From: Clostridia bacterium | Lineage (GTDB): Bacteria > Bacillota > Clostridia > Christensenellales > Aristaeellaceae | DNA: 64,000 nucleotides | Direction: 5' to 3' | Assembly: GCA_017549335.1 (NCBI GenBank) | Contig: JAFYVB010000009.1 | Location: forward strand, 23,118-87,117 | Shown here: positions 9,440 through 52,375 of the stretch, in pieces | How positions within the stretch are numbered: the stretch's first letter is position 1 | Layout: every line of letters begins with the position of its first letter | Translations under genes and position numbers: made by a program | The notes under the pieces: model-generated | Database searches by the model: none | Told to the model about the DNA's origin: nothing | Seen by the model: the letters and a program-made list of their open reading frames with translations, nothing else

Positions 9440-11668
9440 TTATGCCATCGAAGCGGGATTGATTTCAAGCTGTACGGTGCAGGGCCATTCGCTGTCAGCC
9501 AGCTCCTGCATCATACCCAGTACTTCGCGGCTGTCCTTATGTTCCAGCAGCTTCACCAGCACCTGCGCACGGCAGAAGCCGCGAAGATGCTTGATGGGCG
9601 CGTCATCCTGACGCATAAACAGCACGCGCTTGCGAAGAAGGGGCTTTTCTTTTACAAAAGCGTTGAGTTTCGTGTAAATTTCCTTGCTGACCGCCTGAGC
9701 GACCGCTTCGTTCTTTGCCGTACAAAGCAGCCTTGCCATCATCGTAAAAGGCGGATAGAGGGAGCGGCGGCGGCGGGCGAACTCCGTTTGATAGAATGCC
9801 CTGTAATCCTGCGCCGCAGTGGTTTCGATGGCATAATGTTCAGGCATATAGGTCTGAATGACCACCTGACCATTCTTTTCGGCACGGCCTGCGCGGCCCG
9901 CCACCTGAGTGAGCAGCTGGAAGGTGCGCTCGGGGGCACGGTAATCGGGCATATTCAGCGAGGTATCGGCGAGAATGGCGCCCACCAGCGTGACCTCAGG
10001 AAAATCCAGCCCTTTGGCGATCATCTGCGTGCCCACCAATACCTGTGCCTCACGGGCGCGGAAGCGGCTGAGCAGTTTTGCGTGTCCGTCCTTGCCCGAC
10101 GTGGTATCGTTATCCATCCGGATCACGCCCACATTCGGGTATCTTTTTTTGATCTCCTGCTCCACCCGCTGGGTACCCACGCCGCAGGCACGGATATAGC
10201 GGCTTTCGCAGGAGGGACATTTCTCCGGCATGGGAATCTGCTGACCGCACCAGTGGCAGTGCAGGCTATGATCGGTTTCGTGGTAGGTCATGCTCACGTC
10301 GCAGTTGCTGCAGCGGATGGGATTGCCGCAGGAGCGGCAGTTGACAAACTGGGCATAGCCGCGGCGGTTGATAAAGAGCATGGCCTGCTGACCGTCCGAA
10401 ATGCACCGATCCAGTTTTTCCAGCAGCGTCTGGGAGAAGATCCCCTTGTTGCCAAGGCGCAGCTCTTCCCGCATATCGCATACCGTTACCTCAGGCAGCG
10501 GACGCTGATGCACGCGCTTGCGCATTTCAAGCAGGGTATAATCCCCTCTTTCCATGCGCGCAAAGCTCAAAATGGAAGGCGTTGCGCTGGCCAGCACAAG
10601 GGCGGCATTTTCGCGTTTTGCCCTTGACAGGGCAATCTCCCGCGCATCATACTGGGGAAAATGCTCGCTCTGATAGCTTTGCTCGTGTTCTTCATCCACC
10701 ACGATCAGGCCCAGATTCTCCACCGGTGCGAACACCGCCGAACGTGCGCCGATGACCACGCGGGCAGCCCCGTGACGGATGCGCCGCCACTCGTCAAAAC
10801 GTTCACCGGCGGACAGCCTTGAATGCAGAACGGCCGCCACGTCTCCAAAGCGCGCGCGGAACCATGTGACCATCTGCGGTGTAAGCACGATCTCGGGCAC
10901 AAGCACGATAGCGCCCTTGCCAAGCGCCAGACATCTGCGCACAGCGCGAATGAAAACCTCGCTTTTTCCGCTGCCTGTGACGCCGTGAAGCAAAAAGACG
11001 CCGGACCCACGCGTGACGGCAGGCAGAAGATCACTTAAAACATCCTCCTGCTCCCGGGTCAACACGGGGTCGGGCGCCTGTAAAAGCGTATCCGGATAGG
11101 GCGAGCGCAGTATTTCGCGCTCAATGAGCTCCGCGTATCCACGCTCGCACAGGTCGTTAAGACCCTTACGGGCATCATGAACAAGAGGGGAGATTTCACT
11201 CACCGGACGGCATTTTCCGTCCGAAAGCATCTCCAATAACAGTCTGCGCTTGCGGGCGTTTTTGCATTCTGCCATCGCCTTTTCAAGCGCCTCGCCGCCG
11301 ATTGTCAAACGGCAGACCGTTTCGGTCTTGACTTTGATGCGTCCCCCGCGCATTTCGGCAGGAAGCATCAGCCGCAGGGCTTCGGCCAAAGGACAGTGGG
11401 TATCATGGGCAATTTCCTTTGCCAGATCGATCAGCGGCGGCAAAAGCGCGGGATAATCCTCCAACGGCTCTTTTACCTCGCGGATCCTGCCTGCGTCAAA
11501 ATCCGTTTCTTCGGTGATTTCCAATACATACCCTTCCTTAGCCTGATGGCCGAAGGGGACTTTCACACGCATACCGCGTTCAAGATGCATGCCCTCGGGG
11601 ATCCGATAGGTATACATCCGATCGACCTTTTCATGCGCGATATCCACGATCACAAGCGCGTACATCAC
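9440..11668 (-). CDS. priA: Primosomal helicase PriA
   Basis: PriA restarts stalled replication forks by loading the replisome. The 742 aa protein has the N-terminal 3'-DNA binding domain, a Walker A HGVTGSGKSE, a Walker B VDEEHEQSY, and a zinc module with four CxxC pairs (CRSCGNPIRCSNC and HCHWCGQQIPMPEKCPSC), then the helicase C domain with VAGRAGRAEK. It is full length. The gene overlaps coaBC by 4 bp, as in Bacillus. Confidence 0.96.
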   Translation of the reverse strand: MMYALVIVDIAHEKVDRMYTYRIPEGMHLERGMRVKVPFGHQAKEGYVLEITEETDFDAGRIREVKEPLEDYPALLPPLIDLAKEIAHDTHCPLAEALRLMLPAEMRGGRIKVKTETVCRLTIGGEALEKAMAECKNARKRRLLLEMLSDGKCRPVSEISPLVHDARKGLNDLCERGYAELIEREILRSPYPDTLLQAPDPVLTREQEDVLSDLLPAVTRGSGVFLLHGVTGSGKSEVFIRAVRRCLALGKGAIVLVPEIVLTPQMVTWFRARFGDVAAVLHSRLSAGERFDEWRRIRHGAARVVIGARSAVFAPVENLGLIVVDEEHEQSYQSEHFPQYDAREIALSRAKRENAALVLASATPSILSFARMERGDYTLLEMRKRVHQRPLPEVTVCDMREELRLGNKGIFSQTLLEKLDRCISDGQQAMLFINRRGYAQFVNCRSCGNPIRCSNCDVSMTYHETDHSLHCHWCGQQIPMPEKCPSCESRYIRACGVGTQRVEQEIKKRYPNVGVIRMDNDTTSGKDGHAKLLSRFRAREAQVLVGTQMIAKGLDFPEVTLVGAILADTSLNMPDYRAPERTFQLLTQVAGRAGRAEKNGQVVIQTYMPEHYAIETTAAQDYRAFYQTEFARRRRSLYPPFTMMARLLCTAKNEAVAQAVSKEIYTKLNAFVKEKPLLRKRVLFMRQDDAPIKHLRGFCRAQVLVKLLEHKDSREVLGMMQELADSEWPCTVQLEINPASMA

Positions 11669-12870
11669 TTGCCCCGCAGTTCCATTGCCCGATCGAAAAT
11701 AACCTGCGCCAGCTCCGTCTTTTTCATCAGCGGAAGCTCCTCCACGCCCGCATCCGCCAGGATGGAAGCGATGTTGGTATCCACGTCAAAGCCTGCGCCG
11801 GGACGGGTCACATCGTTGGCAACGATCATATCAAGATTTTTGCGATTCAGCTTCTTTTCGGCGTTCTCATGCAGATTTTCGGTTTCCGCTGCAAAGCCGA
11901 TCAGAACCTGACCCGCTTTTTTGATTTCGCCCACTGCCTTTGCCACGTCCTGCGTGGGAACAAGGGTCAGCACGAGCTTTTCATCGCCCTGCTTTTTCAT
12001 TTTCTGGGCAGCCACCGTTTCAGCCTTATAATCCGCAGGCGCAGCCGACTGCACGATGACGTCCTGCATAGGCGCAAGCGCCATCATGGCGTTATAAAGA
12101 TCCTCCGTGGACTGCACGGGCACTACCTTGACGCCTGCAGGCGCGGCAATGGAAACGGGACCCGAGACCAGCGTGACCTGCGCACCGCGCTGCTGCGCGT
12201 TTTCCGCCAGCGCGTAACCCATCCGTCCGGAGGAGCGATTGGTCACAAAGCGCACGGGATCCAGCGCTTCACGGGTGGGGCCGGCGGTGACCAGCACCTT
12301 GAGTCCCGCCATATCCTGCTTGATGGCAAGCAGGTGCTCGATCTCCCCGACAATGTCTTTGGGCTCGCTCATGCGGCCTGCGCCGGTATCTCCGCAGGCG
12401 AGGAAACCGCCTTCGGGGCCGATAAAATGCACGCCGCGGGCTTTGAGCACCTGCAGGTTTTCCTGCGTAGCCGCACTCTCCCACATCCCGGTGTTCATGG
12501 CAGGGGCCATCAGGATCGGAGCACGGGTGGCAAGCACGGTGGTGGACAGCATATCATCGGCAATGCCGTGGGCCATCTTGGCCATGATATTGGCTGTTGC
12601 CGGCGCGATCACGAAAAGATCGGCTGCCTTCGCCAGCGCAACGTGCTCTACCTCCCAGCGCTCGGGGCGCGCAAAGGTATCCGTCACGCAGGGGTGATTG
12701 GACAGCGTTTCAAACGTTAAGGGCGTGACAAACTCACAGGCGTTCTTCGTCATGATCACATGAACCTTGGCGCCTGCCTTGCGAAGCCGGGACACGATCT
12801 CGCAGCTTTTATAGGCTGCGATACCGCCCGTCACACCCAGAACAACGGTCTTTCCGTTCAGTGCCGGCAT
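11665..12870 (-). CDS. coaBC: Bifunctional phosphopantothenoylcysteine decarboxylase/synthase
   Basis: CoaBC makes 4'-phosphopantetheine for coenzyme A in two steps. The N-terminal flavin domain (CoaC, about residues 1-180) shows GGIAAYKS and PAMNTGMW; the C-terminal synthase (CoaB) begins near VTAGPTREALDPVRF and includes NRSSGRMG. The 401 aa length is normal. It sits 5 bp after rpoZ, and its stop overlaps the priA start as ATGA. Confidence 0.96.
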   Translation of the reverse strand: MPALNGKTVVLGVTGGIAAYKSCEIVSRLRKAGAKVHVIMTKNACEFVTPLTFETLSNHPCVTDTFARPERWEVEHVALAKAADLFVIAPATANIMAKMAHGIADDMLSTTVLATRAPILMAPAMNTGMWESAATQENLQVLKARGVHFIGPEGGFLACGDTGAGRMSEPKDIVGEIEHLLAIKQDMAGLKVLVTAGPTREALDPVRFVTNRSSGRMGYALAENAQQRGAQVTLVSGPVSIAAPAGVKVVPVQSTEDLYNAMMALAPMQDVIVQSAAPADYKAETVAAQKMKKQGDEKLVLTLVPTQDVAKAVGEIKKAGQVLIGFAAETENLHENAEKKLNRKNLDMIVANDVTRPGAGFDVDTNIASILADAGVEELPLMKKTELAQVIFDRAMELRGK

Positions 12871-35780: not shown

Positions 35781-35819
35781 GAAATACCCTTGCATCAAAG
35801 CATGAAAGGAGTTTTCATT

Positions 35820-37163
35820 ATGCCCGTTGTTTCGGTAGATTTTTCCGGTCGGCCGATCGGTTCCGTGCGTCCGCTGCACGGCGTCAATTCCGGTCCCATG
35901 ACCAAAGTGTTCACCTATGATGCGCGGCCGCAGTTCATCGAAGCCGGCTTTCCCTATGCCCGTCTGCACGACGTTGAATACCCCTACGGCTCCGGCGAGT
36001 TTGTGGATATCCCCTGCATTTTTAAAAATTATGACGCAGACGAAACCGATCCCGCCAATTACAACTTTGGCCTGACGGACGAGTATCTCAAAGTCTGCAT
36101 GGAAGTGGGCAGCGAACCGCTGTTCCGTCTGGGCGTTTCCATTGAGCACGCGCCTGTCAAACGCTATGTTTATCCTCCGGCCGATTATGAAAAATGGGCG
36201 CGGATCTGCGAACACATCATCCGTCATTACACCGAAGGCTGGGCAAACGGTTTTCACTGGCAGATCAAATACTGGGAGATATGGAACGAAGCCGACAACT
36301 GCATCAAGGGCTCGACCAATATGTGGCTTGGCACGCCGGAGCAGTTTTTTGAACTCTATTGCGTTGCCGCTGCCCATTTGAAAGAAAAATTCCCCCACCT
36401 GAAGATCGGCGGCTGCGGATTTACCCGGGCATACAGCCCGTTCATGGAGGATTTTTTCAAATACCTCTGTGCAAAACCCCAGCGGATTCCGTTGGATTTC
36501 TACTCCTGGCATCTTTATTACAGCGATGTTTCCGAGCTTCTGGCCTCGGCTGTGCAAGCGGATGATTTGAAAAAGCGCTACGGCTATGAAAACGCCGAAA
36601 ATATTTTTGACGAGTGGAATTATATGCACGACTGGAGTAATCAGCCGGAAAGCTATCCCAAGATCAAAAATCACATCGGCGCTGCCCACTGCGCGGCAAC
36701 GCTGTGCGCCATGCAATCAAAGACAAGCATTGCGCTGGCAACCTATTTTGAAGCGGACGTTGTCAAGGAATGGTGCGGGCTTTTTGAGGTGGACAAAATG
36801 AGTCACGGCAAGCAAAAAGCCACCGTCAGACCCCTTAAGCCCTTCTATGCCTTCAAGGCGTTCAACGAGCTGTACAAAATGAAGCACGCCGTTGCCGCCC
36901 GCTGCGATTCGGAAAACATTTATGCCTGTGCATCCTCCGACGGAAAACGTGCAGGCGTGCTTGCAGCCAATTATATGAATGAAGATACGGTGCTTACCTT
37001 TGATCTGCAGGGCATTCCCGCAGGGGAAGTGCTTGAAGTAAGAATTATCGATGAAGACAAAACCTTTGATACACTGATAACGCTGGAAGGCAACAATTCT
37101 GTCAGATTCTCCCTGCCCCTGAAAAGCAATGCGGTTGTTTATATCGGAAGCAAAATCATATAG
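35820..37163 (+). CDS. GH39-like glycoside hydrolase (probable beta-xylosidase type)
   Basis: The 447 aa protein is a clan-A (TIM-barrel) glycosidase related to GH39. The acid/base Glu is in YWEIWNEAD (near residue 157) and the nucleophile Glu in IFDEWNY (near residue 264). There is no signal peptide, so it cuts sugars already imported. The ATG at 35820 follows AAGGAG by 8 nt; the ten codons before it are not used. A short beta-rich C-terminal domain follows the barrel. Its promoter and operator match those of the ABC uptake operon 100 bp downstream, so both are probably controlled together. The exact substrate is not known. Confidence 0.85.
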   Translation: MPVVSVDFSGRPIGSVRPLHGVNSGPMTKVFTYDARPQFIEAGFPYARLHDVEYPYGSGEFVDIPCIFKNYDADETDPANYNFGLTDEYLKVCMEVGSEPLFRLGVSIEHAPVKRYVYPPADYEKWARICEHIIRHYTEGWANGFHWQIKYWEIWNEADNCIKGSTNMWLGTPEQFFELYCVAAAHLKEKFPHLKIGGCGFTRAYSPFMEDFFKYLCAKPQRIPLDFYSWHLYYSDVSELLASAVQADDLKKRYGYENAENIFDEWNYMHDWSNQPESYPKIKNHIGAAHCAATLCAMQSKTSIALATYFEADVVKEWCGLFEVDKMSHGKQKATVRPLKPFYAFKAFNELYKMKHAVAARCDSENIYACASSDGKRAGVLAANYMNEDTVLTFDLQGIPAGEVLEVRIIDEDKTFDTLITLEGNNSVRFSLPLKSNAVVYIGSKII

Positions 37164-37365: not shown

Positions 37366-38661
37366 ATGAAGAAACTGCTGGCCCTGATTCTGGCTGCGCT
37401 CATGCTGGCTTCCATGGTTCCCGCCATGGCCGCGACCGAGTATGACGTAACCGAACCCATCACCATCACCTGGTGGCACGCTCACGAAGGCGCTTACGCC
37501 GACGATATGGAGTGGATGGTTAACAAGTTCAACACCGAAAACAACATGGGCATCACCGTTGTACCTCAGTACATCGGCTCCTACACCGAAATCAACACCC
37601 AGTTCATCGCTGCTGACGCTGCCGGCACCGGCACCGTTCCCGCTCTGGTGACCTGCAATACCTCCTATCCCGCCGGTTACGGCAACGACGGTCTGTGCGA
37701 AGTGCTCGATCCCTACATCGACGCTTTCGAATATGACCTCGAAGACTTCGGCGAAGGCCTGATCGCCTCCACCAGCTTCGACGGCGAGCAGATCTGCCTG
37801 CCCTACCTGATCTCCACCCAGTGCATCTACTACAACAAGACCGCTGCTCAGGAAGAAGGCATCACCATCCCCACCAAGTTCGAAGAACTGGATGAGTTCC
37901 TGGCGAAGGCCACCCTGTTCAACGAAGACGGCACCACCAAGCGTTACGGCCTCGTATTCGGCGGCTGGGACTACTGGTACTATGAAATGTTCTACAAGAA
38001 CAACGGCGTTCAGTGCGTCCTGCCCGATGGCACCACCGACGTGAACTCCGAAAAGGCCGTTGCCATCACCACCAAGATCAAGGAATGGATCGACAAGGGC
38101 TACGCTTACTATGCCTACGGCACCGGCGCTTCCACCAACATGCGCGAGCTGTTCTGGACCGACATGGGCGCTTTCGCCGTTTCCCACACTTCCTCCATGT
38201 ATGACACCTACGTATCCAAGGTTGGCGACAAGTTCGAAGTTGGTATGGCTTGGCAGCCCAACAGCGACGGCGAGTCCTACAAGTCCGAAGTTGGCGGCTC
38301 CGCCATCCTGATCCCCGCCAAGGCTTCTCAGGCTGAAAAGAACGCTGCCTGGCAGTTCCTGATGTTCATGACCAGCCCCGAAATCAACCTGTACTGGGCT
38401 GACAAGACCGGTTACTTCCCCACTCGTCAGAGTGTTGAAGGCACCCCCGCTTACGATGAGTATCTGCAGCGCAAGCCCGAGATGAAGAACATCGTCTCCA
38501 TGGCTCAGTGGATCAACCCCCGCAACCAGCATCCCGCTTACGACGCCTGCGCGAACCTGTGGCGCACCGCTCTGTATGAAATCTTCAACAACAACGCTCC
38601 CATCCAGGCCACTCTGGATCAGCTGGCTGTCGAAATCACCGAAACTCTGGCTGACAACTAA
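37366..38661 (+). CDS. Extracellular sugar-binding protein of an ABC transporter
   Basis: A 431 aa family 1 solute-binding protein of the MalE/UgpB type; the mature part begins near TEYDVTEPITITWWHAHEG. The signal peptide MKKLLALILAALMLASMVPA ends in AMA and has no lipobox cysteine, so it should be released or held by other means rather than lipid-anchored. Codons end mostly in C, as in highly expressed genes. The start at 37366 follows GGAAGG. It leads two permease genes, and a stem-loop and repeat element lie in between. The ATPase is not encoded here and is probably shared. Confidence 0.92.
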   Translation: MKKLLALILAALMLASMVPAMAATEYDVTEPITITWWHAHEGAYADDMEWMVNKFNTENNMGITVVPQYIGSYTEINTQFIAADAAGTGTVPALVTCNTSYPAGYGNDGLCEVLDPYIDAFEYDLEDFGEGLIASTSFDGEQICLPYLISTQCIYYNKTAAQEEGITIPTKFEELDEFLAKATLFNEDGTTKRYGLVFGGWDYWYYEMFYKNNGVQCVLPDGTTDVNSEKAVAITTKIKEWIDKGYAYYAYGTGASTNMRELFWTDMGAFAVSHTSSMYDTYVSKVGDKFEVGMAWQPNSDGESYKSEVGGSAILIPAKASQAEKNAAWQFLMFMTSPEINLYWADKTGYFPTRQSVEGTPAYDEYLQRKPEMKNIVSMAQWINPRNQHPAYDACANLWRTALYEIFNNNAPIQATLDQLAVEITETLADN

Positions 38662-38854: not shown

Positions 38855-40576
38855 GTGAAAACTGCAGCAGATCGCGCGTTCAAAAAAGCAATGCGCGCCC
38901 ATGAAAGACGACTGATTTCCAAGCGTCAGCGTGTCAGCGGCTTGGTACTGATCGTGCTGGGCATCCTGTTCCTGTCCGTGGGTCTGTTCGGCTGGCTGGT
39001 CGGCGATATGCAGCTCGCCTCCCTGTCCACTCTGACCGAGCAGGTCTATGCCGCCCGTGAAACCGCCCAGAGCGCCGGCACCGGCGTTTTCGGCGCCTTC
39101 GACCTGGATGGTGAGGACAGCGGCGCCCGTATCTTCTACGCCGAATACACTTCCGGCGAAGAAAAAGGCTCCATCAACGCACAGGATTTCAAGATCGAGG
39201 AGAACAAAAAGTCCCTCAAGGGTGAGGGTCTCCAGTTCCCCGGCACCAAGGATTACCCCAATCTGGTGGTTGCCGAAGAAAAGCCCGTCAAGCTTGACAA
39301 CGGTATGGAATTCACCCAGAGCGTGAAGCTCCGCGGCGCCGGTTCCAGCAAATACCGCAGTCTGAAGCTGACCGTGGATGCTCCCGGCACGCTGAACGTT
39401 TGGGCCGTTTCTTCCAAGGCCGGTCAGGAACGCAAGCTGGTTCTGTACAACACCAAGGGCACTGAAGTTGCCGAAGTGATGGCTCCTGCCAGCGCCGAAG
39501 GCACACTGACCGCTCTGACCTTTGCCATCCCCGGCAGCGGCACGTACTATGTGTCCTCCAAGGGTGACATTCCCATCGCTCCCGTCAGCACCATCATGAA
39601 CCTGGCCATCGTGCTGCTGATCATCGGCGGTATGCTGATTTTCAACGGTATCGTTATGCGCATCCAGCGTTGGGAGAGCATGAAGGACCTGTTCTTCGTC
39701 GAACCCGTCATTCTGTTCTTCATGATGTTCGTTTACTATCCCATGGTTGACCTGGTTCGTATTTCCTTCACGAACATGGGCATCCTGACCACCGGTATGC
39801 AGGAGTTCGTCGGCTGGAACAACTACGACTGGTTCATCAATCAGTCCGGTTCCCGCTACTTCTGGCAGAGCCTGGGCGTAACCGCCACCTACACCTTCTG
39901 GGAGATCGTGATCACCCTGATCGGCGGCATCCTGCTGGCGCTTCTGTTTAACCGCATGACCCGCACCTTCAACGCCTTCCGTGCCATCGTGTTCATGCCC
40001 AAGTACATCGCCGTTTCCACCAGTGCCGTAGTATTCATGTGGATCCTGTATGCTCCCATGGCCGGCGGCGCGGGCGCCCAGAACGACGGTATTCTGAACT
40101 TTGCGCTGAGCCGTTTCGGCATTCAGGGCCCCCGCTGGCTGATTGACGAAGCCACCGCCCTGACCGGCGTTCTGATCCTCACCGGCTGGCGCGTTGTAGG
40201 CTACGCCATGATGATCTACCTCTCCGCCATGCAGGGTATCCCGAAGGATTACTACGAGGCTGCCTCCATCGACGGCGCCGACGGCGTACAGCAGTTCCGC
40301 TACATCACCGTTCCGCTGCTGGCTCCCACCACCCTGTTCCTGTTCGTAACCACCTTCATCGCCAGTATGAAGGTATTCCAGTCGGTAGACGTTATGACAG
40401 GCGGCGGTCCCGGCTACGCCACCAACGTAATGGTACAGTGGATTTACAACCTGACCTTCAAGGACTTCCGCACCGCCCGCGGCGCGGCCGTCTCGCTGGT
40501 GTTCTTCCTGATCCTGCTGGTGTGCACCACCGCTACCATGAAGTACTCCAAGAAGAACGTCAACTACGATTCGTAA
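38855..40576 (+). CDS. ABC sugar permease 1 with inserted extracellular domain
   Basis: The GTG at 38855-38857, 9 nt after GAGG, is the start; earlier codons of the frame come from the MITE. The 573 aa protein is nearly twice the normal size (about 290 aa). Residues 28-48 form a membrane helix, 50-240 lie outside, and a second helix at about 246-266 precedes a normal MalF/UgpA-type permease (275-573) with the EAA motif YEAASIDGADGVQQF. The outside part ends in a beta-sandwich-like stretch with RGAGSSKYRSLKLTVDAPG and GTYYVSSKGD, a pattern found in pectate-lyase-associated sugar-binding domains. It probably presents or gates the sugar at the channel; that is an inference. Confidence 0.9.
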   Translation: MKTAADRAFKKAMRAHERRLISKRQRVSGLVLIVLGILFLSVGLFGWLVGDMQLASLSTLTEQVYAARETAQSAGTGVFGAFDLDGEDSGARIFYAEYTSGEEKGSINAQDFKIEENKKSLKGEGLQFPGTKDYPNLVVAEEKPVKLDNGMEFTQSVKLRGAGSSKYRSLKLTVDAPGTLNVWAVSSKAGQERKLVLYNTKGTEVAEVMAPASAEGTLTALTFAIPGSGTYYVSSKGDIPIAPVSTIMNLAIVLLIIGGMLIFNGIVMRIQRWESMKDLFFVEPVILFFMMFVYYPMVDLVRISFTNMGILTTGMQEFVGWNNYDWFINQSGSRYFWQSLGVTATYTFWEIVITLIGGILLALLFNRMTRTFNAFRAIVFMPKYIAVSTSAVVFMWILYAPMAGGAGAQNDGILNFALSRFGIQGPRWLIDEATALTGVLILTGWRVVGYAMMIYLSAMQGIPKDYYEAASIDGADGVQQFRYITVPLLAPTTLFLFVTTFIASMKVFQSVDVMTGGGPGYATNVMVQWIYNLTFKDFRTARGAAVSLVFFLILLVCTTATMKYSKKNVNYDS

Positions 40577-40592: not shown

Positions 40593-41975
40593 ATGCTTAA
40601 CAATCAGAAAAAACTCGGCATTGCTCTCGTATTGACCGCAAGCGTCCTCTTGGTCGCCGCTTTCCTCGCGGTACCCTTCGGCGCCACTTCTGCGGTGCGC
40701 ACCACGCTGGCCATCATTGGCGCCGTTCTCCTGCTCTGTGCCGCCCCGATCATGTGGAAAGACGGCATCAAGCGCATTAAAGACGAGCCCCGTCGCAAGG
40801 GTAGCCTGCTGACCATGCGTCAGAGCGGTTTCTTCGATTTCATCGTTCTTCTGCTGATCGTTGCCACCATCCTGGCCGCCATGGGTGTCTTCGGCCTGAT
40901 CACCTACAACTCCACCCTGAGCAAGCACATCGCCCTTGCCGGCAGCAACGTAAAGACGCTGGAAGAAGCTCGTCTGGTTCCCGAATTCATCGAGTACAAC
41001 TTCAAGAAGGATCTTAACTTCGTCGCCGCTTCTTATGGTTCTTTCCTTCTCATCGCGACCATCATCTTCGTTGCGTGTGTGGTTTCCCTCGTGTACATGC
41101 GCTTTATCTCTCCCATCGTAAGAGCTGACGAAAGCCTGCAGCGTGCTCACAAGATCTACCGCACCACCGCTCAGTATGCCGCTGCGATCGTAGTCGTACT
41201 GCTGATGCTGTTCCCCATCTACTGGATGATCATTTCTTCCTTCAAGACCTCCGACGAACTTCTCGCCGCCGTTCCTACCCTGTGGCCCAAGGAGTTCATC
41301 TGGTCCAACTACCCCGACGTGCTCAAGAAAGCTCCCTTTGATAAGTATTTGATCAACACCCTGATCACCACGTTGGTCATCATGGTGGGCGAGCTGACCG
41401 TTGGCGTAATGGCTGCCTACGGCTTCTCCAAGGGCACGTTCGTCGGCCGCGAGTTCCTGTTCATGCTGGTTCTGGGCGCCCTGATGGTTCCCATCCAGGT
41501 CACCTTCGTTCCGATCTACGTTTTCATCGCCCGTATGAACATGATCGATACCTACGCCGGCATCATCGTTCCCAATCTGGTTTCCGCTTACTTCGTGTTC
41601 ATGCTAAGGCAGAACTTCATGGCGGTTGACAACAGCTACATCGAAGCCGGTAAGGTGGACGGCATGGGCCGCTTCGGCACCATCTTCCACGTGCTGTGCC
41701 CCATGTGCAAGCCCACCTTGATCACCGTTTCCATCATCACCTTCATCAACGGCTGGAACTCCTACTTCTGGCCCAAGATGATCAGCAAAACCGTAGCTTC
41801 CCGTACCATCGCCGTCGGTGTGCAGCAGCTGAAGAACACCTTCGCCGGTATGGAAGTTTCCAACTACAACGAGATCATGGCCGGCGCCGTAATGGCCATC
41901 GTGCCCATTATCGCCCTGTTCCTGATCCTGCAGAAGTACATCATGACCGGTATGTCCAAGGCCGCCATGAAGTAA
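40593..41975 (+). CDS. ABC sugar permease 2 with N-terminal membrane extension
   Basis: The 460 aa protein has a normal UgpE/MalG-type permease from about residue 188 (FPIYWMIISSFKTSDE) with the EAA motif EAGKVDGMGRFGTIFH near 349. Before it lies an extra domain with four membrane helices and a loop of about 35 residues (about 105-140), not found in ordinary MalG/UgpE. The start is the ATG at 40593, after GGAGG. It follows permease 1 by 16 bp. A strong terminator ends the operon. No ABC ATPase gene is nearby. Confidence 0.9.
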   Translation: MLNNQKKLGIALVLTASVLLVAAFLAVPFGATSAVRTTLAIIGAVLLLCAAPIMWKDGIKRIKDEPRRKGSLLTMRQSGFFDFIVLLLIVATILAAMGVFGLITYNSTLSKHIALAGSNVKTLEEARLVPEFIEYNFKKDLNFVAASYGSFLLIATIIFVACVVSLVYMRFISPIVRADESLQRAHKIYRTTAQYAAAIVVVLLMLFPIYWMIISSFKTSDELLAAVPTLWPKEFIWSNYPDVLKKAPFDKYLINTLITTLVIMVGELTVGVMAAYGFSKGTFVGREFLFMLVLGALMVPIQVTFVPIYVFIARMNMIDTYAGIIVPNLVSAYFVFMLRQNFMAVDNSYIEAGKVDGMGRFGTIFHVLCPMCKPTLITVSIITFINGWNSYFWPKMISKTVASRTIAVGVQQLKNTFAGMEVSNYNEIMAGAVMAIVPIIALFLILQKYIMTGMSKAAMK

Positions 41976-51574: not shown

Positions 51575-52366
51575 TTAGTCATGCCAGCCGTGCTTTTGCA
51601 GGAAAGCAATGCACTTGGCCGGATCGTTGGCGGTGATCAGCATCGCACCGCGCAGGCAACCCTTTTCCCAGCTTTCTTCGCTGTCGTTGGAATAGTAAAT
51701 CCACGGCTCCACGCCGTTTGCGATCGCCAGATCAAAATCCTCCCGATCGCGCACGGGCTCGGTTTCTCCCTTCCACAGGCATACGCAGTGGAAGTAATCA
51801 TAAGGCGCACGGGTCACCTCGCCTTTGAGCACGGAGAAAGGATAATATCCGTGCAGGCGATACTTATGATCATACTTTTTATCAATGTATTCCAGCAGCC
51901 CCGCATGCCAGCAGTTGATCCAGATACGATCTCCCCAGCCGTATTCCTCCAGCAGCGCAATGGCTTTATCGCAGGAAATATAGGCCCAGTCATCGCCCTC
52001 GGCAGGATAATCCTTGAGCTCCACGTTGAGGGTCATATGGGGATGATCCTTCATCATTTCAAGGAATTCCACAAACGTGGGGACCTTTTCCCCCTTGAAA
52101 GCTTCATCTTTCCATCCGCCGGCGTCCAGTTCTTTGATCTCCGCCAGCGTTTTTTCGCGGATCAGGCCTTCGCCGTTGGTAGTGCGATCCACCTGATGAT
52201 CGTGCATCAGGATGATCTCGCCATCCTTGGTCATGTGCAGGTCGATCTCCAGCTGATCGATATTCAGCTTCAGCGCTTCCCTGAAAGCAAGAAGGGTGTT
52301 TTCGGGATAATATTTGGAATTGCCGCGATGCGCCGCTACACGGACGCGATTTTTATAAGTATCCAT
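51575..52366 (-). CDS. Glycerophosphodiester phosphodiesterase
   Basis: The 263 aa protein has AAHRGNSKYYPENTLLAF and ELDLHMTKDGEIILMHDHQVDRTTNG-type motifs (His, Glu, Asp, His; here written QLEIDLHMTKDGE), so it should cleave glycerophosphodiesters. I chose the second of two ATGs (52366) because it sits 7 nt after GAGG; 52369 is possible. No signal peptide. In this operon it may release glycerol phosphate from imported or teichoic-type substrates. Confidence 0.9.
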   Translation of the reverse strand: MDTYKNRVRVAAHRGNSKYYPENTLLAFREALKLNIDQLEIDLHMTKDGEIILMHDHQVDRTTNGEGLIREKTLAEIKELDAGGWKDEAFKGEKVPTFVEFLEMMKDHPHMTLNVELKDYPAEGDDWAYISCDKAIALLEEYGWGDRIWINCWHAGLLEYIDKKYDHKYRLHGYYPFSVLKGEVTRAPYDYFHCVCLWKGETEPVRDREDFDLAIANGVEPWIYYSNDSEESWEKGCLRGAMLITANDPAKCIAFLQKHGWHD

Positions 52367-52375
52367 CATTTCACC

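Follow-up and report, generated by a model that had tools for sequence, protein, structure and literature searches.

A pectinase-type beta-sandwich, permuted at the profile level, in the channel subunit of a putative Ugp-like importer from gut Clostridia

The window, which is the whole stretch of 64,000 nt from a Clostridia bacterium that was analyzed, contains a cluster of transporter genes in which a solute-binding protein (SBP) gene is followed by the genes for two permeases. The first of these, permease 1, is of the UgpA/MalF type and was found to encode a protein of 573 amino acid residues with an ectodomain (Table 1). The BPD_transp_1 domain of permease 1 and the clustering of its gene with those of a second permease and an SBP place the system among the CUT1/type I importers. 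A gene for a GH39-like glycosidase lies just upstream of the SBP gene.

Table 1. Positions of the transporter genes, the parts of permease 1 and neighboring features in the window
Feature	Coordinates	Strand	Basis
GH39-like glycosidase gene	35790..37163	+	Pfam, 1.4e-17
Solute-binding protein (SBP_bac_8)	37366..38661	+	best NCBIfam UgpB, below cut-off
Permease 1, UgpA/MalF type, 573 aa, with ectodomain	38855..40576	+	open frame
Extra membrane helix 1, residues 27-45	38933..38989	+	hydropathy
Ectodomain, approximately residues 84-240	39104..39574	+	missing in paralogue L002, both flanks align
Displaced strand, residues 89-101, SGARIFYAEYTSG	39119..39157	+	matches the strand that ends the pectinase domain
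Remaining pectinase-type beta-sandwich, residues 104-237	39164..39565	+	homology
Extra membrane helix 2, residues 250-268	39602..39658	+	hydropathy
Permease core, residues 279-573, with BPD_transp_1 at 356-556	39689..40573	+	Pfam
Antisense shadow frame, 594 aa	38819..40603	-
Permease 2, UgpE/MalG type, long N-terminal extension	40593..41975	+	best NCBIfam UgpE, below cut-off
N-terminal extension of permease 2, ~190 aa	40593..41170	+
GDPD-family gene	51575..52369	-

The frame of permease 1 is open from a GTG start codon, and this start matches those of relatives, for example L019 with NVKT and L021 with NVKD at the same place. When 26 related loci were fetched, 25 relatives aligned near full length with 63-79% identity, and judged by this conservation the reading frame is real coding sequence. 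A long frame also runs antisense to permease 1, and similar long shadow frames were observed opposite other coding genes; they are perhaps an effect of codon usage and could mislead gene callers.

Eight helices were found in permease 1 by a hydropathy scan, namely those at residues 27-45, 250-268 and 280-298 and five others, with ~204 residues outside between the first and the second. Six K/R residues are present in the 15-residue flank on the N-terminal side of helix 1 and none in that on the C-terminal side, so that residues 46-249 should be located outside. The remainder of the protein is a permease core in which BPD_transp_1 was detected with an E-value of 2e-14, and which matched solved MalF structures at 9.3e-16 to 1.1e-15, as well as other sugar permeases. 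The original prediction of a helix, about 190 outside residues and a second helix ahead of a MalF/UgpA-type permease was therefore borne out by the helices, the loop and the core described here.

To assign the ectodomain, residues 1-274 were compared with the PDB by phmmer, and two enzymes were retrieved: 8x8h ('Pectate disaccharide-lyase') at residues 149-235 (8.7e-8) and 8wc1 ('Pectate lyase family 9') at residues 138-235 (3.6e-6). With a profile built from 26 ectodomains, the same two entries were matched at 5.8e-10 and 1.7e-8, respectively, and the third match had an E-value of 1.3. In the reverse direction, a profile of eight domains taken from long proteins recovered 8wc1 at 4.1e-22 and the permease of the window at 3.4e-18. 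These reciprocal matches show homology between most of the outside domain of permease 1 and the pectate-lyase beta-sandwich. This kinship had also been noticed in the original prediction, and the stretch that it singled out (residues 160-238) falls within the 8x8h/8wc1 match. Pfam recognizes the domain weakly, through the family PPC (PF04151), which was matched at E<=1 by 13 of the 26 ectodomains (best 2.1e-5), and the ectodomain of the window scored 17.1 bits, below the gathering score of 25.9.

The domain was also found in proteins other than permeases. Among the 26 non-permease hosts that were scanned, many of which are incomplete because they end at the edge of the examined DNA, nine carried a pectinase Pfam domain: Pel9A-like in L063, L065, L075 and L120, Pectate_lyase_4 in L076 and L122, and Pectinesterase in L113, L129 and L139. 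A generic beta-helix only was observed in L116 and a GDSL hydrolase in L078, and the remaining hosts had neither.

A natural empty-site control is provided by L002, a paralogue encoded in the same genome. It is 62% identical to permease 1 over residues 249-572 and keeps the two extra helices, which are joined by a short stretch. From the conserved GDM to helix 2 it has ~159 residues fewer; the flanks align on both sides, and the domain is missing. L002 resembles the system of the window in its extra helix pair, its Ugp-like subunits (its SBP is encoded in L106) and its long permease 2, and differs from it in lacking the domain and in following a gene that looks HAD-type by eye. The same domain-less two-helix layout was observed in L018, from another genome of the genus.

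A profile search for the domain in other permeases, as had been proposed with the original prediction, was successful, and 28 domain-bearing permeases (those of the window, the 25 relatives, L066 and L067) were included in a tree of the permease cores of 39 permeases. All 28 formed one clade (support 100/99), and this clade joined two domain-less two-helix paralogues with moderate support (81/86); the deeper branching order is unsure owing to the long outgroup branches. The best explanation of the alignments and the tree is that a UgpA-type subunit acquired the ectodomain once, in the loop that connects two helices added at its N-terminus.

Among 150 genomes of the family, the domain occurs in a permease-sized frame in 14, and three more have it only in frames of 1143-1149 aa. 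Three of 297 genomes in the order sample carried it in permeases and four more in other proteins, and in the phylum sample it occurred in one genome of 398, which was the genome of the window itself. That genome, which is 86% complete, contains a single occurrence. The 26 related loci all come from metagenome-assembled genomes, mostly labeled Clostridia or Clostridiales (the exceptions are one 'bacterium', one Christensenella and one Candidatus Ventricola), and ruminant gut samples are named as the origin of four of them. The group that carries the domain-bearing permease consists of gut and rumen bacteria.

At the profile level, the strand order of 8wc1 and 8x8h is apparently not retained in the permeases, the last strand coming first. 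The enzyme domains typically finish with a strand of the type SGGINIYYIAI, whereas in the permeases the domain opens with an SG-x-x-hydrophobic-aromatic motif (consensus SGVHVFYA), followed by the equivalent of the first enzyme strand. When HMMER was applied to 8wc1, query residues 34-163 were aligned to 8-132 and query residues 16-28 to 135-147, the second piece being far below significance; the order of the two pieces is that expected of a permutation. Subsequently to the core (residues 104-237) of the 26 permeases, 13-residue permease segments were appended, and the products were scored by an enzyme-only profile. Segment 89-101 ranked first of 560 with a gain of 11.76 bits, ranks 2-6 overlapped it, and the best non-overlapping segment gained 4.47 bits. 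The gain from segment 89-101 was observed in all 26 sequences (8.3-14.7 bits), and its mean was reached by none of 300 column shuffles, the best of which gave 7.06. As shown by hhalign, a tandem (two-copy) enzyme profile scored 120.5 vs 108.6 for a single copy, with a path that crosses the junction, and shuffling the first 32 columns 100 times never gave this gain of 11.9 (best 5.0). When the entire ectodomain stretch (173 residues in the window) was simply rotated with its linkers kept, no gain resulted, which is taken to mean that the cost of the two linkers to the helices outweighs the gain from the strand; the effect appeared only once the linkers were removed. At the level of profiles we regard it as firm that the ectodomain is circularly permuted, with the last strand of the enzyme domain placed first.

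Tandem copies of the domain occur in enzymes, for example in L112 and L128, and suggest how a permuted piece could arise: its likely source would be the tail of one copy together with most of the next copy in a tandem array. The same tandem enzymes can be read in favor of a fold that is not permuted, in which the N-terminal strand would be a relic of an upstream copy and the C-terminal GDIPIAP would form the last strand. The conserved C-terminal GDIPI stretch was indeed also placed by hhalign on the last strand of the enzyme, GGINI, but it was segment 89-101 that gave the top gain among the 560. Both arrangements can be derived from one tandem source and the sequence fits either strand in the slot, yet we consider the unpermuted one rather improbable. 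It concerns the fold alone and could be combined with any role of the domain.

The partners of permease 1 were compared with NCBIfam, and UgpB, UgpA and UgpE were the best models for the SBP, permease 1 and permease 2, with scores far below the cut-offs in each case (61.1 of 411, 96 of 335 and 142.1 of 297, respectively). The UgpE match on permease 2 begins at residue 196; the extension ahead of this UgpE-like core contains several hydrophobic stretches, and permease 2 of the domain-less paralogue, at 382 aa, likewise exceeds the 281 positions of the UgpE model. The closest solved relatives of the SBP are the 7c16 sugar-type series, which we take to be a Thermus dinucleotide binder, followed by M. 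tuberculosis UspB/UgpB and E. coli UgpB. The Thermus dinucleotide binder is discussed in PMC12718374, where the ligand residues of UgpB are given as two Tyr, two Ser, a Trp pair, Gly, Glu and Arg. Of these residues, the SBP of the window keeps Y65, S144, G307 and Y346 and has lost E89, and the outcome for S270, R397 and the Trp pair depends on the alignment. The kept residues were also present in other SBPs of the genome (six compared, two of them partial), and because they are unspecific in this way, they were rejected as proof of the substrate.

The neighborhood of the transporter was analyzed in 28 related loci (L019-L044, L066 and L067, of which L028 and L032 come from the same bin as separate contigs). 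A glycerophosphodiester phosphodiesterase (GDPD) gene was found in 15 of them. It is located immediately behind permease 2, on the same strand and with a gap of 13-50 nt, in ten (L028, L029, L031, L032, L034, L035, L037, L038, L039 and L043, the last at 11103-11828); elsewhere it lies behind an MBL-fold gene (L021), nearby on the opposite strand (L019, L027 and L036) or upstream (L042). No GDPD was seen in the other 13 loci, and in four of these (L025, L030, L033 and L041) the DNA behind permease 2 is shorter than 700 nt or missing. Eight of the ten GDPDs directly behind permease 2 were inspected, and all have an HRG motif, presumably the catalytic one, within ~20 residues and are devoid of a signal peptide. 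In L024 the gene directly behind permease 2 encodes the glycerol kinase GlpK (733.6 bits, cut-off 498). The genetic link to GDPD that characterizes Ugp importers is thus present in 15 of the 28 related loci, and no GDPD adjoins the transporter in the window. The genome of the window has nine GDPD matches. An orthologue of the L019 GDPD (57%) lies on another contig; the GDPD-family gene within the window, ~10 kb downstream of the transporter, is 29% alike to the GDPDs of the related loci.

Six of the 28 loci (L020, L021, L022, L023, L027 with two, and L067) have an MBL-fold gene behind permease 2, and the four proteins inspected in full have a signal peptide and keep SHPHIDH. Compared with the PDB, the L021 protein matched ComEC (3.4e-15) and CbpE (4.4e-8), which is a teichoic acid phosphorylcholine esterase. 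The MBL-fold genes at L021:6573-7517, L023:7063-7998 and L027:11183-13105 (duplicated) are candidates for secreted phosphodiesterases. A protein of ~334-364 aa also recurs in nine of the 28 loci (L035:4546-5562 on the plus strand, L024, L025, L029, L036-L038, L042 and L043), and in seven of them its gene precedes that of the SBP on the same strand. The L035 copy has a signal peptide and gave no NCBIfam or PDB match, and the four copies scanned had no Pfam match better than E=0.2; this exported protein may be a partner of the importer. From the subunit models and the recurring neighbors, the system is most likely a CUT1-class, Ugp-like importer for glycerophosphodiesters or glycerol phosphate.

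The homology of the domain, its insertion and its confinement to one clade are graded much firmer than any statement on its role. The SBP of the window has a signal peptide and, by a simple pattern, no lipobox, and the same pattern detects none in 18 of the 19 relatives for which the start of the SBP is readable; a dock that keeps such an SBP at the pore would make sense. The ectodomain is similar in size to MalF P2 and lies on the same side, and could therefore serve the same end from a different loop. We infer that it would sit beside the pore and hold the soluble SBP, as an analogue of MalF P2 at another site of the protein, and that glycerophosphodiesters would pass from the SBP to the pore and then be cleaved inside by GDPD. 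The SBP of the domain-less paralogue and two others of the genome are also without a lipobox, so that the absence of an anchor is not tied to the domain and is no more than compatible with docking; as it is not specific to domain-bearing systems, it was rejected as proof. Among the SBPs of the genome (L105-L111), four of the six with a readable start have no lipobox, which would be unusual if the envelope is monoderm. That the ectodomain docks the SBP is, on our analysis, a little short of an even bet, and the reading as a whole, in which a Ugp-like importer gained the ectodomain once, in permuted form, as a docking or retention platform for a soluble SBP, is given a probability of about 0.45.

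The main rival to docking is that the ectodomain captures a ligand, either a carbohydrate or a glycerol-phosphate polymer such as teichoic acid, and thereby raises the local concentration of substrate. The relatives of the domain on pectinases, seven residues that are invariant in the 26 aligned permeases (K122, K132, K158, K166, Y167, K171 and R193) and the MBL-fold genes behind permease 2, of which the tested one resembles CbpE as well as ComEC, are in line with such capture. The net charge of the domain is, however, negative in all 26 permeases (-2 to -13), which does not favor a polyanion, and binding of a polyanion by a basic domain was rejected for this reason. Moreover, the 'SNKT' motif region of the enzyme domains has no counterpart in the permeases when the aligned sequences are inspected by eye, and neither ligand data nor binding residues for 8wc1 or 8x8h were found in the open-access literature. 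Capture is considered unlikely. A bolder form of it, in which the polysaccharide-recognition domain of a secreted enzyme, permuted via a tandem intermediate, would have become a pore-side receptor that captures glycerol-phosphate polymers or the products of the MBL enzyme and feeds them to the pore, is a long shot; if true, it would amount to a coupled machine for cutting, capturing and importing phosphodiester polymers in gut Clostridia.

The original prediction had proposed that the domain could pass sugar to the pore or recognize polymer ends; in a reading along these lines, the importer would take up pectic oligosaccharides and the domain would bind pectin. The kinship of the domain with the accessory domains of PL9, PL1 and pectinesterase enzymes and the GH39-like gene immediately upstream in the window speak for this proposal, but no relative of the GH39-like protein was seen among the called genes of the 28 loci (>100 bits; many loci end near the transporter), and the neighbors that recur there are GDPD, the exported MBL-fold enzyme, the exported protein without a match and, once, GlpK. 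Import of pectin was rejected on this ground and is held to be very improbable, and a role in sugar transfer or in recognition of polymer ends, as suggested at the outset, found no support. The docking of a soluble SBP by the ectodomain of a Ugp-like importer is retained as the preferred reading.

Compared with known systems, the importer class and the domain family are both familiar, and they are found here in what is, by their sequences, a new and permuted combination; in the open-access literature, as far as titles and abstract openings go, no paper on 8wc1 or 8x8h or on a permease with such a domain was found. E. coli MalF has a CUT1 core and, by the same hydropathy scan, eight helices like permease 1, and its outside domain is of similar size (P2, residues 91-271, vs the loop at 46-249). 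P2, which contacts MalE according to PMC3150292, is inserted between helices 3 and 4, whereas the domain of permease 1 lies between helices 1 and 2 and belongs to the pectinase-accessory family, in agreement with the original prediction that the layout differs from that of MalF. It would be a second evolutionary solution for a large outside domain on an importer channel, using another loop and another family than P2. With the Ugp systems (E. coli UgpBAEC with UgpQ, and M. tuberculosis UgpB) the cluster shares UgpB, UgpA and UgpE as the best models for its subunits and, in ten relatives, a GDPD gene after permease 2; it differs from them in its scores below the NCBIfam cut-offs and in the loss of E89. 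E. coli UgpA, with 295 aa, has neither the extra helix pair nor the domain. In 8wc1 and 8x8h the accessory domain is a module of a secreted enzyme, whereas in permease 1 it is a membrane-anchored insert with a permuted strand order. As insertion requires the two ends of a domain to be near each other, permease 1 would exemplify how circular permutation allows a secreted domain to be inserted into a membrane protein.
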